Made by a program: the position numbers and the translations under genes. A DNA stretch of 64,000 nt from Synechococcus sp. M16.1 (GTDB lineage: Bacteria; Cyanobacteriota; Cyanobacteriia; PCC-6307; Cyanobiaceae). This document shows positions 1,622-36,466 of this stretch, one piece after another. The DNA lies in the NCBI RefSeq assembly GCF_014279895.1, contig NZ_CP047954.1, forward strand, positions 1,612,001-1,676,000. Reading direction: 5' to 3'. Below the pieces are notes generated by a model. It had not been told where the DNA came from, did not search any database, and saw only the letters and a program-made list of their open reading frames with translations. Each line of letters opens with the position of its first letter. Position 1 is the first letter of the stretch.

Positions 1622-3804
1622 TAGAACTTCCAGCCCACGCCCAGATTGAACCGCCAATCGGAGCTGAAGTCCTTACTGGCCACTTCCACACGCAGCGGAC
1701 CCACTGGGGTGGTGACGATCACGCCGGTACCCACGGAAACACCGGAGCCGCTCTTGTCCAAGAGCAAACCGGGCTTGCCGGGCACATCTTTCTGGGTGCC
1801 GATATCAGTACCGGCGTCCATGAACACTTCACCGGAAAAGATGCTGATCAGCGGGAAGCGGTACTCGAGCGTGAGTTCACTGAAAGCCTTCGAAACCGCA
1901 AGATCACAGTCGTACCAACCGCGAATCGAGTTGGATCCGCCCATGCAGAACGCCTCGTACGGGGGCGCTTCACCCATCAAGAGACCACCCTTGATCTGCA
2001 CACCGATGGCCTGCGGGCAATCGGCCTGTTCACCGGCCTTGGGCCGGCAACCCTTGTGGATTTTCAGCCAGTTCACGGGGAAGAACTGGGTGTAACTCGC
2101 CCTCAGCCGGTTGAAGGTGGGTGAATCGTTGTTGATGCCGAAGAACTGCTCGGTACCAGCCGTAAAGAAGTTGCCGCTGGTGGGGTTCCGAGGGTTGTTG
2201 AAGTTGTTGTAAGTGGTGGCGACACGTACTCCCACAAGGGTGTTGCTGTCGGCGCAGTTGTACGCCACGCAAATCACGTCATCGCCGTCGACCACTCCAT
2301 TCTTACGGTTGTTGGTGGAGACGCCGTATGGCCGAGTACTTCCTGCGAAATTGACTGGACGCACCTCAGCAAAGGACATGCCGGCCAGCACATTCCACTT
2401 GCTGTCCTTGTAGGGATTGCCTCCGTTTAAAGGGCGGGAGAAAGAGAAGCTGCCACCGGTCCTGCGCAGCACCACCGTGTCGCCCTCGTAGTCATACCAA
2501 CTGCGGTTGGGGTACTCGCTATCAGCTTTGTTGACGTCGTCCGGAGCCTTGTTTCCATCGGTGAATCCATAACTGCGGCCTGTCTCATAAGCCTTGTTGG
2601 AGCCGTTGTCGACGTAGTCCTTCGCTGTGCGGATGTAACCGTTGTCATCGCTCTGGAACACCTGTGGCACCTGCTGGCTCAGGAACACCGACGTGCGGAA
2701 GCTGGTGCGGTGCTTGTCGCCATAGATCCAGGGATCCCTGAAGCTGAGGTTGGCGAGACCGCCGTACTGGCCGTAGGTGATGTTCGTAGACAGATTCCAA
2801 GCTCTTCCGAGGAGGTTGGTCTCCTGTAATTGCACCTGACCGAACACACCCTGACTTTGGCTGTAGCCAAGGCCTCCGGAAAGCTGGCCGGTGGACTGTT
2901 CAACGATGCCCAGCACGATCACCACGTCGCCGGGCTCTTCGGGCACAGGCCGCAGGGTGACCTTCACATCACTGAACAGCTGGGTGCCGTACAGGCGTTT
3001 GATGTCCCTCTCGAGCTGGTTGCGGTTGAACGGATCACCAGGCTGAATCGAAACCTCTCGGGTGATCACCCACTCCCTGGTCTTGCCGCGGATGGAGTTG
3101 CCGTTCTCATCGGTGTCATCACCATCTTGGGTGAGGAATTTCACCTCAACGCCAGACACATTGCCCTGCAGAAGTTTCAGCGTGACCACACCCTCAGGAC
3201 TGACCCGTTCCGGACCGGACACCCGCGCCAGGGAATATCCCTGACCGGCCACGGAGGTCTGCAGGGCCTTCATCCGCTGCTGCAGATCGTTGAGGTTCAG
3301 CGTGCGGCCGTAATCGGAGGCAAACGCCTCCTCAATCAGCTCATCCGAGAGGAGATTCTCCTCGTCACCGTTGATCTCTACGGCACTCAGCGGAGGGAAG
3401 GGCTGCACCTGAACAACCACTTGAACCCCGAGCGGTCCGTTCTGAGGAACGATCCGCACATCCGAGAACCAACCTGTGGCCTGAATGCCATTCAGATCGT
3501 TCTGCAGCTCCTCGCGTGTCACACGCATCCCCGGACGCACCTGCATGGCGTCGTAGGTGGAGATCTGAAGACGTTCCTCTTCCGGGTGGCCCTCGATGCC
3601 CTCAATCAGCACCTCGGAGATCAGCACCCGGGGCTGTTCCACCAGGGTGTTTTCAGCAACAACCTCTTCAGCCTCAGCAGCTGGGTTCCCAGGCGTGGCC
3701 TCCTGAGCCATCACCGGTGGAGCGACCAGGGGGATCCCCAGCATCAGACCCAGAACCGTGCCACGAAAGGCAACCGAAGAGCGGCGGGTCGAACGGCGGG
3801 TCAT
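1621..3804 (-). CDS. bamA: BamA/Omp85 outer-membrane assembly factor
   Basis: Inserts beta-barrel proteins into the outer membrane. The 727-residue protein has an N-terminal signal peptide (hydrophobic core GTVLGLMLGIPLVAP, cleavage near VMAQ), a short acidic linker, roughly three POTRA domains (about residues 55-310, the cyanobacterial number) and a C-terminal barrel. The barrel has the Omp85 signature GGSNSIRGW and ends in aromatic WKF. An odd feature is cysteines in predicted surface loops (DVICVAYNC, GCRPKAGEQADC, and Cys on both sides of the GGSNSIRGW motif), which could form disulfides. It is followed by lpxC with a one-base overlap. Confidence 0.95.
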   Translation of the reverse strand: MTRRSTRRSSVAFRGTVLGLMLGIPLVAPPVMAQEATPGNPAAEAEEVVAENTLVEQPRVLISEVLIEGIEGHPEEERLQISTYDAMQVRPGMRVTREELQNDLNGIQATGWFSDVRIVPQNGPLGVQVVVQVQPFPPLSAVEINGDEENLLSDELIEEAFASDYGRTLNLNDLQQRMKALQTSVAGQGYSLARVSGPERVSPEGVVTLKLLQGNVSGVEVKFLTQDGDDTDENGNSIRGKTREWVITREVSIQPGDPFNRNQLERDIKRLYGTQLFSDVKVTLRPVPEEPGDVVIVLGIVEQSTGQLSGGLGYSQSQGVFGQVQLQETNLLGRAWNLSTNITYGQYGGLANLSFRDPWIYGDKHRTSFRTSVFLSQQVPQVFQSDDNGYIRTAKDYVDNGSNKAYETGRSYGFTDGNKAPDDVNKADSEYPNRSWYDYEGDTVVLRRTGGSFSFSRPLNGGNPYKDSKWNVLAGMSFAEVRPVNFAGSTRPYGVSTNNRKNGVVDGDDVICVAYNCADSNTLVGVRVATTYNNFNNPRNPTSGNFFTAGTEQFFGINNDSPTFNRLRASYTQFFPVNWLKIHKGCRPKAGEQADCPQAIGVQIKGGLLMGEAPPYEAFCMGGSNSIRGWYDCDLAVSKAFSELTLEYRFPLISIFSGEVFMDAGTDIGTQKDVPGKPGLLLDKSGSGVSVGTGVIVTTPVGPLRVEVASKDFSSDWRFNLGVGWKF

Positions 3805-3846
3805 CTAGACGCAGGCTGGGCCAGAGCCACAAAAGTTGCGCTGACC

Positions 3847-4599
3847 TTACAGGCAGTTGCGGGGGTTGGGGCAGCTGCTTTGGACCCGTTTAAGGACCTC
3901 CCCGTAGGCCTCCATCACCCCACCGAGATCCTTGCGAAAGCGGTCCTTGTCCAAAATCCGGTCTTCGGCATTGCTGTTGCGGCGATCCCAGAGCCTGCAG
4001 GTGTCAGGGCTGATCTCATCGGCGAGCAGGAGTGTTCCGTCCGCAGCCAGCCCCAACTCCAGCTTGAAATCCACCAATTGCAGATCAAGCCCTTCAAAGA
4101 ACGGCAGGAGCACGGCATTCACCCGGCGGGCCAGTTGTTCAATCGCTGACAGTCGTGCTGGGTCTGCCACACCAAGCAGCTGCACACGCGCCTCCGTAAG
4201 CAAGGGATCGCCCAGGGAATCATCCTTGTAATAGAGATCCAGCAGGGCGGGTTCGATGGCGGTACCCTCCGCGATCGGCGTTTGACGGCACAGCGATCCG
4301 GTGGCGGTGTTGCGCAGCACCACCTCGAGGGGAATGATCTCCACCCGACGCACCAGCATCCAGGCCTCCCCGGCCAGACCGCAGTAATGGGTCGGCACCC
4401 CCTCACGCTCCAGCAGCTCGAACAACCGTGCTGAGATCTGGCAGTTCAGCCGACCTTTGTCGTCCAGCTGGGCTTTCTTCTGGGCATTGAAAGCGGTGGC
4501 GTCGTTCTTGAACTCCACCAGCACCCGCTCAGGATCCGTGCTGGCGAACACCCGCTTGGCCTTGCCTTCGTAAAGCAGCTCTCCGTGATCGGGCGTCAT
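3847..4599 (-). CDS. purC: Phosphoribosylaminoimidazole-succinocarboxamide (SAICAR) synthase
   Basis: Condenses CAIR with aspartate using ATP in de novo purine synthesis. The 250-residue protein has family motifs: N-terminal [20 protein letters not shown], the [12 protein letters not shown] stretch, DFKLELG, and [14 protein letters not shown] near residue 190. Length is normal. Its ATG overlaps the end of the upstream secreted protein by 4 nt. A second purine gene, purD, lies divergently only about 1 kb away. Confidence 0.95.
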
Positions 4600-33988: not shown

Positions 33989-34256
33989 ACCAACCCGCTC
34001 ACAAACTCAATTTCCAGCACACATATTTTGAAGACAGCTTCAAGCTGATGGTCGTAATGCTGTTCATCAACTTGCCGCTCTGTTCCGATCAATTTTGCGA
34101 CCAGAAGCCACACAAGAAAGCACTAATCAAGAAAACTGAGCCACGACTGAGGCGGTATTACAAGATCAACAAACCAAGAATTCTTCAAGCAGCCTGAATG
34201 GATGAGAGCCCTAGCGGCCTTGAACTTAAGCCGTGAGACTTCAGATTCCAGAAACA

Positions 34257-34709
34257 TTACTCAGGGCTTTGCAACCCTGATTTCAGAAAAGCAATTTCCT
34301 TGTAGACCCGATCAAGCTCGTACAACGTTTTTGTTTCCTTCTTTTCAAGGATTTCAACCCGCTTCAACAGATCCTCCAACAACTTGTTTTGCAAAGATTC
34401 AACCTGAACTTGCCTTTTTTGCACGCCTTTTGAGGGAGCAGAAGCCGTGCTGGCCGGGGAAAGAATGCCTCCATCCGTTTCGACGTACAACAAGGCAAGA
34501 CGCTCCAACACCTTGGAGTAGGCCTTGTCTTGTTGTCGGCAAAGGGCTTTGAAACGCTGCAGCGTCTCTGGAGCGAACTGGGCGGCGAAAGCTCCGGGGC
34601 GCTGGGGCATTTGTCCCGACACATCGATACACAGCAAGACGTTAGCCGGTACCTCTCCGCACCCCGAATCCTTCATGACCGGCAACCAACGCCGGCCCCC
34701 AGGCGCCAC
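34257..34709 (-). CDS. Putative ribbon-helix-helix-like protein with C-terminal coiled coil
   Basis: An unrecognised 150-residue protein; an internal ATG at 34676 is an alternative start (139 residues). About residues 38-82 (AFAAQFAPETLQRFK, then ALCRQQDKAYSKVLERLALL) have the beta-helix-helix pattern of CopG/MetJ-type DNA-binding proteins. After a Ser/Ala linker, residues about 95-147 (VESLQNKLLEDLLKRVEILE, then KKETKTLYELDRVYKEIAFL) read as a coiled coil. It is less GC-rich than its neighbours, lies between secG and groEL, and has an inverted repeat immediately upstream. Assignment is a pattern judgement only. Confidence 0.55.
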   Translation of the reverse strand: MAPGGRRWLPVMKDSGCGEVPANVLLCIDVSGQMPQRPGAFAAQFAPETLQRFKALCRQQDKAYSKVLERLALLYVETDGGILSPASTASAPSKGVQKRQVQVESLQNKLLEDLLKRVEILEKKETKTLYELDRVYKEIAFLKSGLQSPE

Positions 34710-34712
34710 ATA

Positions 34713-34738
34713 TCTTGTAAAAACTAGTTCTTACAAGA
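34713..34738. promoter_or_regulatory. Inverted repeat, possible operator
   Basis: TCTTGTAA (34713-34720) and TTACAAGA (34731-34738) form perfect 8-bp arms around a 10-nt A/T-rich centre. It lies 4 nt upstream of the first possible start of the regulator-like gene and downstream of the groEL terminator on the same strand. Confidence 0.5.
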
Positions 34739-34751
34739 CAGCATCCGAACA

Positions 34752-34782
34752 TAAAAAAGAGGCCCCGCAGGACCTCTTGGCA
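34752..34782 (-). terminator. Intrinsic terminator of groES-groEL
   Basis: On the minus strand: AAGAGGTCC, loop, GGGGCCTCTT and a T run. Closer to the groEL stop (34803-34822), GGGTGGT / ACCACCC forms another hairpin that may assist. Confidence 0.85.
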
Positions 34783-34831: not shown

Positions 34832-36466
34832 TCAGTAGTCGAAGTCGCCGCCGCCCATGCCGCCGCCGGCAGGAGCTGCTTCCTTCTTCTCAGGCAGATC
34901 AGCCACGATGCACTCGGTGGTGAGCACCATGCCAGCAATGGATGCGGCATTTTGCAGACCGGAGCGGGTCACCTTGGCGGGATCTACGATGCCGGCAGCC
35001 AGCATGTCGACGTACTCGCCGGAGGCAGCGTTGAAGCCTTCGGCACCAGCGCGAGCCTTGACGTTCTCAGCCACAACAGCGCCGTTGGCACCTGCGTTTT
35101 CAGCGATGCGCATCAGCGGAGCGGTAAGAGCAGCAGCCACGATGTTGGCGCCGATCAGTTCCTCACCGGACAGGCTGGAGGCTGCCCACTGCTCCAGGGC
35201 CGGAGCCAGGTGAGCCAGGGTGGTGCCACCGCCAGGAACGATGCCTTCCTCAACAGCCGCCTTGGTGGCGTTGATGGCGTCCTCGAGACGGAGTTTCTTG
35301 TCCTTCATCTCGGTTTCGGTGGCTGCACCCACCTTCACCACAGCCACGCCACCGGCCAGCTTGGCCAGGCGTTCCTGCAGCTTCTCCTTGTCATAGGTGG
35401 AGTCGGTCTCGTCCATCTGCTTCTTGATCTGTTCGCAGCGGGCGCCGACAGCCGCCTCGTTGCCCTCGGCAACGATGGTGGTGGTGTCCTTGTTGATGGT
35501 GATGCGACGGGCGGTGCCCAGCATCTCGAGCTTGGCGTTCTCCAGCTTGAGACCGGCATCTTCGGTGATCAGCTGACCGTTGGTCAGCACAGCCATGTCT
35601 TCCAACATGGCCTTGCGGCGATCACCAAAACCAGGAGCCTTCACAGCGGCCACGTTCAGCACACCGCGCAGACGGTTCACCACCAGAGTGGCCAGGGCTT
35701 CCTTCTCGATGTCCTCAGCAATGATCAGCAGAGGCTTGCCGGTGCGGGCGATTTGCTCCAGCACGGGCACCAGATCCTGCACCAGACCGATCTTCTTGTC
35801 GGTGAGAAGGATGTAGGGCTCGTCGAGGACGGCTTCCATCCGCTCGGTGTCGGTGGCGAAATAAGGGGAGATGTAGCCCTTATCGAAGCGCATGCCCTCG
35901 GTGACCTCGAGTTCGGTCTCCATGGACTTGCCCTCTTCGAGGGAAATCACACCTTCCTTGCCAACCTTGTCCATGGCATCGGCAATCATCTTGCCGACTT
36001 CTTCATCGTTGCCAGCGGAGATGGTGCCGACCTGAGCGATGGCATTGCTGTCAGCGATGGGCTTGGCCATTTCCTTGATCTTGCTGACCAGGAAATCGGA
36101 AGCCTTGTCGATGCCCTTCTTCAGGGTGATGGCGTTGGCACCGGCAGCCACGTTGCGCAGACCCGCCTTGACCATGGCGTGAGCCAGAACGGTGGCGGTG
36201 GTGGTGCCGTCACCTGCGGCGTCATTGGTTTTGGAGGCGGCCTGACGGATCAGAGCAACACCGGTGTTCTCGATGTGGTCTTCGAGCTCAATCTCCTTGG
36301 CGATGGTGACGCCGTCATTGATGATCTGGGGTGCACCGAACTTCTTCTCGAGCACCACGTTGCGGCCCTTGGGACCAAGGGTCACGGCAACAGCTTCGCA
36401 GAGGATGTCGATGCCTTTTTCGAGAGCGCGACGGGCGTTCTCGTTGTAGATGATGCGCTTTGCCAT
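34832..36466 (-). CDS. groL: Chaperonin GroEL
   Basis: 60-kDa folding chaperonin. The 544-residue protein contains [12 protein letters not shown], the ATP motif [14 protein letters not shown] and [18 protein letters not shown]. The C-terminal tail [11 protein letters not shown] is the short cyanobacterial type without repeated GGM units. It is downstream of groES (77-nt gap) and is therefore the operon-borne GroEL; cyanobacteria usually carry a second groEL elsewhere. Confidence 0.98.

Follow-up and report, generated by a model that had tools for sequence, protein, structure and literature searches.

Ribbon-helix-helix (RHH) repressors such as Arc, CopG, ParG and MatP typically act on dyad operators and regulate their own genes, and SaPIs are reportedly controlled by a master repressor, Stl. 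In the staphylococcal phage-inducible chromosomal island SeCISE48 and its relatives, insertion at the 3' end of groEL is driven by an integrase and, according to the passages that describe the site, the att site overlaps the last bases of groEL and leaves the gene unaltered (PMC8125051). Tycheposons of Prochlorococcus are described, in the passages on their borders, with tRNA genes at these borders (PMC10872708). For cyanobacteria, we found no report of an integrative element at groEL in the open-access literature searched, and the groEL passages of PMC3744912, PMC3025956 and PMC2217521 contain no such element.

The stretch analysed here (hereafter the window) comprises 64,000 nucleotides of Synechococcus sp. 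M16.1 (contig NZ_CP047954.1, positions 1,612,001 to 1,676,000). Between groEL and secG, a sequence-only reading had pointed to a regulator-like gene, here called X, a palindrome described as abutting it and an A/T-rich pocket; gene, palindrome and pocket proved real when open reading frames, sequence and GC content were checked. The pocket (33989-34750) has a GC content of 49.6% compared to 63.1% for the window and belongs to the lowest 0.33% of all 762-bp stretches; its portion between X and secG (33989..34256) is non-coding, has 45.5% GC and yielded neither a second groEL tail nor an integrase remnant. As proposed, a minus-strand open reading frame is present (34257-34709), but the gene is shorter than had been implied, as X most likely starts at the ATG at 34610 and not at the GTG at 34709. 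The GTG start is probably wrong because in-frame stops break the N-terminal extension upstream of the ATG in two relatives (L010 and L012) and the upstream frame continues back into the end of groEL in a third (L003); the aligned copies at groEL open with MPQRPGAF or a close variant. X would thus cover 34257..34610 on the minus strand and encode 117 amino acids. The palindrome TCTTGTAA-N10-TTACAAGA was found with its 8-bp arms at 34713-34738 and, given the ATG start, lies about 100 bp upstream of X, not immediately upstream as had been claimed. Upstream of X on the same strand lies groEL (34832-36466, minus), with its own terminator in between, which we read from the sequence as a hairpin plus T-run (34753..34780, minus) directly before the palindrome-containing dyad D1 described below; the order of hairpin and D1 is the same in relatives. 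The 3' end of groEL, GACTTCGACTACTGA (34832..34846, minus), is a probable att core, a second copy of which lies at the far end of the elements found in relatives.

The protein probably consists of an RHH-like N-terminus (approximately residues 6-48), a linker and a C-terminal coiled coil. The predicted model (mean pLDDT 62) contains helices at residues 14-26, 31-44 and 63-110, of which the first two correspond, at low confidence, to the helix pair of an RHH fold and the third is a single long helix; the ribbon strand is absent from the model. Among 20 X members, Pfam RHH_9 matched 11 (best E 0.0028, below the curated cut-off) and the ParG family three (best E 0.0033), member 1 falling under both RHH cut-offs, while the Arc-like family phrog_3180 matched three (best E 1.2e-4). 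The match of six members to bZIP_1, with a best E value (0.00038) better than these RHH values from Pfam, was taken as a chance match of the coiled coil. A profile match to ParG in the PDB (E 0.044) ranked under a coiled coil, and a coiled-coil match to cartilage matrix protein (E 0.018) is uninformative on the N-terminus. Of the RHH proteins, ParG ranked first in the profile search; it was also the top Foldseek match, and MatP appeared too. The Foldseek matches were mostly RHH proteins by name, all with E values of 0.96 or higher, and the best Z score in the structure comparison was 4.4, a range that possibly reflects only a common arrangement. The RHH matches are thus weak but recurrent over three kinds of search, and the earlier assignment of an RHH domain and a coiled coil is supported by weak but consistent indications from families, profiles, structure model and Foldseek. 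In the alignment of X members, the N-terminal domain is shared and the coiled coil varies by subfamily. An X-like RHH stretch also occurs within a longer protein of 248 amino acids (L127 6556-7302, in G089), the neighbours of which we take to be HlyD/ABC-transporter-like.

Two candidate operators precede X. The first, D1 (34711..34740, minus), is a dyad of 30 bp (TGTCTTG-TAAGAA-CTAG-TTTTTA-CAAGATA) that includes the palindrome; the second, D2 (34612..34641, minus; CGTCTTG-CTGTGT-ATCG-ATGTGT-CGGGACA), is weaker, with just 3-4 of 7 outer pairs, ends 1 nt before the ATG, lies 99 bp from D1 and carries a -10-like TATCGA at its centre. A genome-wide scan allowing 3 mismatches to the D1 consensus also recovered the D2 copy of G005. 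The exact palindrome is single-copy in the genome (2.11 Mb). Since perfect repeats of the 8-N10-8 type are not rare (n=7 in the window), rarity alone is insufficient, and we judge the palindrome real because it is conserved across loci. The form 7-6-CTAG-6-7, written as TGTMTTG-N6-CTAG-N6-CAAKACA with small variations, was found at the same place in 12 of the 14 loci with X adjacent to groEL, own locus included; the anticipated conservation in carriers did not extend to G012 and G018, the two most diverged adjacent copies, which are without this form. The two arms change jointly (TGTATTG/CAATACA in L010). With a matrix from 12 of the 13 known D1 sites, counting the one in G014 (22-48 bits when left one out), the same 12 of 14 loci scored at least 29.9 bits, and the G026 site (L030), which was left out of the matrix, scored 45.0. 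Of 16 groEL loci lacking X in the fetched stretch, 15 scored below zero, two of them with less than 250 bp after groEL (L032 and L048), and the remaining one, the resolvase promoter of G016, scored 24.7. The spacing between D1 and D2 is 98-100 bp in 12 of 12 loci of the window's clade, 109 and 110 bp in L056 and L057, and 118-120 bp in six loci of genus g32.

The matrix gave no significant sites in the UW, g32, G136 and G240 loci, which have their own half-sites. Inverted repeats assessed promoter by promoter were weak (p <=0.08 in 12 of 33 upstream regions), and in three of these 12 regions (L013, L063, L071) the repeat was not the dyad. At up to 2 mismatches, dyad sites in G000 were not above the reversed-pattern control (4 versus 7). 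At 3 mismatches, the CTAG form occurred at one further site in 11 of 13 X carriers and one of eight other genomes; as an operator of a wider regulon this site was rejected because of its position within a coding frame. That no other sites turned up in the genomes scanned speaks for a dedicated, self-contained switch and against a global regulator. An RNA element at the locus was considered and discarded, as there was no Rfam match.

X was detected in 20 of 59 genomes, own included (19 of 34 inside the genus, one of 25 outside); at the level of the family, a broader profile found it in 37 of 400 genomes. Within the genus, the proposed comparison of relatives for presence or absence revealed X directly 3' of groEL in 14 of the 34 genomes searched, own included. 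In G014, X and D1 are retained with X lying about 8 kb from groEL, past an inserted element; in G016, X is located within an element; and G002, G013 and G028 have only a diverged X, on a contig other than that of groEL. For 12 close copies, the median dN/dS was 0.075 (57 usable of 66 pairs), indicating that X is under strong purifying selection, and the copies of G000 and G001 differ by 16 synonymous substitutions and no others. The spread of X at the locus and the low dN/dS argue against a recent arrival as well as against a decaying gene, and the view that X was recently acquired was not supported, given this spread and the 16 synonymous and 0 non-synonymous differences to the nearest relative. 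The tree of X does not distinguish one loss from several for the solitary copies at groEL. Phage origin of X was rejected, as tblastn against 50,697 phage records gave no match and none of 45 pattern matches on viral contigs was confirmed. X genes, otherwise found here in picocyanobacteria only, also occur on two contigs labelled Coxiellaceae and Flavobacteriales (L061, L069), which are probably mis-binned MAG contigs. A further X subfamily adjoins a gene that is presumably serine-hydrolase-like (L125, L162, L163, L065), in L125 beside tRNA-Ser(gct), and this site is possibly a third locus at which X is retained.

In relatives, X is part of elements at groEL that contain an integrase and a duplicated target end. 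In G016, groEL is followed by resolvase, ParB-methyltransferase, cargo and X, then by the integrase on the opposite strand and a second groEL tail; in G136, one contig carries the left end with groEL, resolvase and ParB and another the right end with X, integrase and tail, and the two are taken as one element. A third element, in G240, carries resolvase, ParB-methyltransferase, X and a distant integrase with a phage-integrase SAM-like domain between ylqD, the last 16 residues of which are unmatched, and a gene that we take to be pdhC; Pfam confirmed the YlqD and lipoyl acyltransferase domains on L122. In these three, the only X elements with an open integrase found, X and the integrase are placed tail to tail with open frames overlapping by 12-13 bp, and the resolvase and ParB-methyltransferase genes are at the opposite end. 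The integrases of G016 and G136 are 62% identical (L071 versus L098). The E values for Phage_integrase were 2.6e-8 for L070 (above the cut-off), 5.5e-6 for L071 and 1.7e-4 for L098, the latter two with 26.7 and 21.8 bits, both below the cut-off of 27.1. L070 and L071 have GACTTCGACTAYTGA both at groEL and at the far end, and in L098 it was seen at the far end.

Other loci retain parts of such elements: a broken integrase and X after ylqD in G344, a broken resolvase between groEL and X in UW105 and UW140, fragments of ParB and integrase next to X in L061, a contig that contains no groEL, and X before pdhC without resolvase or ParB in G125 and G172, the latter with a distant integrase-like gene 11 kb from X. 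Altogether, X/integrase pairs were seen at two unrelated loci in four genera. The window has only X, D1 and D2 left, with no integrase or second att copy (best remnant match in its X-secG stretch E 0.45), and a search for integrase, resolvase, ParB and att remnants in the X-secG stretches of three relatives gave a best E value of 0.005 (L006). Because of the loci with elements and those bearing fragments, X is best read as an element gene that can outlive the rest, and the earlier suspicion of a mobile-element relic gained strong support. The loci can be arranged in a decay series at groEL from the full element to X alone, with a similar outcome at ylqD/pdhC.

Several further features of these elements were observed. 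The groEL site of G014 is occupied by another type of element without X (L070 2035-9110), which carries a resolvase, an integrase sharing about 33% identity with the G016 integrase, an RHH-like gene of its own (NikA-like, E 8e-5), a TylF-like methyltransferase and a weak DruA-like match (E 0.009). Repeats like GTTTGGAACA or GTGTGGAAC lie near element ends (L071 980-1040 and 10338-10363, L070 about 9249) and are possible integrase arm sites; a GTGTGGAAC-like copy is left between groEL and X in L063. In three loci, one end of the element has two groEL tails separated by about 20 bp (L070 1721/1741, L071 10445/10466, L098 12680/12660), which suggests repeated or staggered integrations. The cargo in L071 includes a gene for 755 amino acids with BspA-type leucine-rich repeats (2141-4408; LRR_5, E 7.5e-115). 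Related genes starting with LHIGHGKTGT or LHLGFHKTG occur in L072-L075 and L061-L063, either in the X-secG interval or downstream of X, making this site a variable cargo spot; the identification of one of them (L072:648-1817) as a sulfotransferase was dropped, as it had no Pfam match at E 0.01.

The candidate operators of solitary X recur at a promoter of the elements. In 11.5 kb around the G016 element, the two best hits of the 12-site solitary-X matrix scored 18.5 and 12.2 bits (the top one reached in 0 of 200 shuffles) and both fell at the resolvase promoter, 99 bp apart and the second over a -10-like CTATAT; these two are the only sites with up to 2 mismatches in that genome. A third site (7.3 bits, above the 95% shuffle level of 4.7) lies elsewhere in the element, off any known promoter. 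Before the G240 resolvase, GTATAGG occurs four times within 72 bp and nowhere else in the 15 kb; the cluster also contains one GCATAGG, and GCCTAT is found twice before X. After G016 and G240, a half-site shared between the two promoters was predicted for G136 before looking, and the prediction held: the resolvase promoter contains GTATCTA-N16-TAGATAC and the X promoter GTATCTA-N15-TAGATAC. In G035, where a related X occupies a different locus, GTATCTA-N16-TAGATAC lies 10 bp ahead of the start of X, so that the type of dyad follows the protein lineage from locus to locus. The autoregulation suspected earlier is supported by a putative operator that is both conserved and common to the resolvase promoter of related elements.

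These results suggest that a family of integrative elements in picocyanobacteria, with one branch that uses the 3' end of groEL as its insertion site, has X as its putative transcriptional repressor. As long as the element is intact, dimers of X would bind through their RHH domains to the roughly 30-bp dyads at two promoters, the one of the resolvase/ParB-methyltransferase genes and that of X itself, and would thereby silence the element and limit the level of X. The lineage of the window would have lost integrase, resolvase, ParB gene and cargo, leaving X under a promoter with two putative operators 99 bp apart, as at the resolvase promoter of G016; since the spacing varies between loci, this agreement may be coincidence. 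As the dyads are centred on -10-like sequences, repression by occlusion is favoured over activation, and looping between the two operators would be possible. X would then have been retained by selection as a solitary autoregulated gene. Considering the relic context, the shared operators, the conservation and the selection described above, we regard it as likely that X is the autoregulated master repressor of the element, retained alone with its operator.

An unlikely alternative is that X acts as a partition or nucleoid-organising protein of the element, ParG- or MatP-like with RHH and coiled coil, which works with the ParB-methyltransferase on dyads that are both centromere-like and autoregulatory. 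The rank of ParG and the appearance of MatP in the searches, a ParB_N domain in the element protein (Pfam) and the clustered GTATAGG and GCATAGG copies before the G240 resolvase fit this role, whereas the dyads are few and located at promoters, solitary X is retained where ParB is gone, and no ParA-like family was detected among the element proteins scanned (three and, in a further scan, six of L071, six of L124, five of L098; the G136 element in part). Rather improbable is also that X is an ordinary host regulator captured by elements and not a leftover element gene. Its strong conservation at groEL in many strains would be expected of such a gene, but resolvase, ParB or integrase fragments lie broken beside solitary X, the pairing with integrases extends to two unrelated loci in four genera, and no second operator was found apart from the carrier-shared site at 3 mismatches (11 of 13 carriers, one of eight others) in a coding frame. 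Very unlikely, finally, is a role as directionality factor (excisionase) or accessory protein of the integrase, which would account for the tail-to-tail pair in the three intact cases, since the dyads are found at the resolvase and X promoters, a different, GTTTGGAACA-like repeat lies near both element ends in G016, and it is not evident why an excisionase on its own should be retained at a dN/dS of 0.075.

If X is a retained repressor, the most likely reason for its retention, we infer, is that it silences newly arriving elements of its own type, and immunity of this sort would be plausible. G014, a genome with solitary X, has in its groEL site an element that lacks X and carries another RHH-like gene, which fits this view but is a single case. 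More tentatively, and with some doubt, we propose that the repressor and operator of dead elements at the groEL and pdhC loci have been kept repeatedly as a heritable immunity gene, with X silencing incoming resolvase/ParB genes and the co-divergence of repressor and operator (TGTMTTG, GTATCTA, GTATAGG) constituting an arms-race-like code. A conserved gene of abundant ocean cyanobacteria that has no family name is thus given a proposed function and origin, and elements in cyanobacteria are described that target groEL as islands do in staphylococci; the gradation from complete element to solitary putative repressor, seen at two loci, offers a test bed for repressor-operator co-evolution and for immunity by retained repressors.

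Compared to Arc, CopG, ParG and MatP, the predicted low-confidence model of X shares the helix pair after a short N-terminal stretch, but X reaches no family cut-off, has a long C-terminal coiled coil after the RHH-like domain and has a candidate operator of 30 bp with 16 bp between the arms. Like the SeCISE48 islands as described in the passages on their integration (PMC8125051), the elements of the relatives integrate at the 3' end of groEL by means of an integrase; they differ in their RHH-like putative repressor, their serine resolvase and ParB-methyltransferase and their cyanobacterial host. Neither phage genes nor an inducing phage were identified for them in Pfam scans of some of the cargo proteins. 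No tRNA gene was found in L070, L071 and L124, and L098 has one tRNA-Val at 12 kb from the element. With tycheposons, as far as the passages on their borders describe them (PMC10872708), they have in common that they are site-specific tyrosine-recombinase elements of marine picocyanobacteria, whereas they use groEL and the ylqD/pdhC locus in place of a tRNA border.
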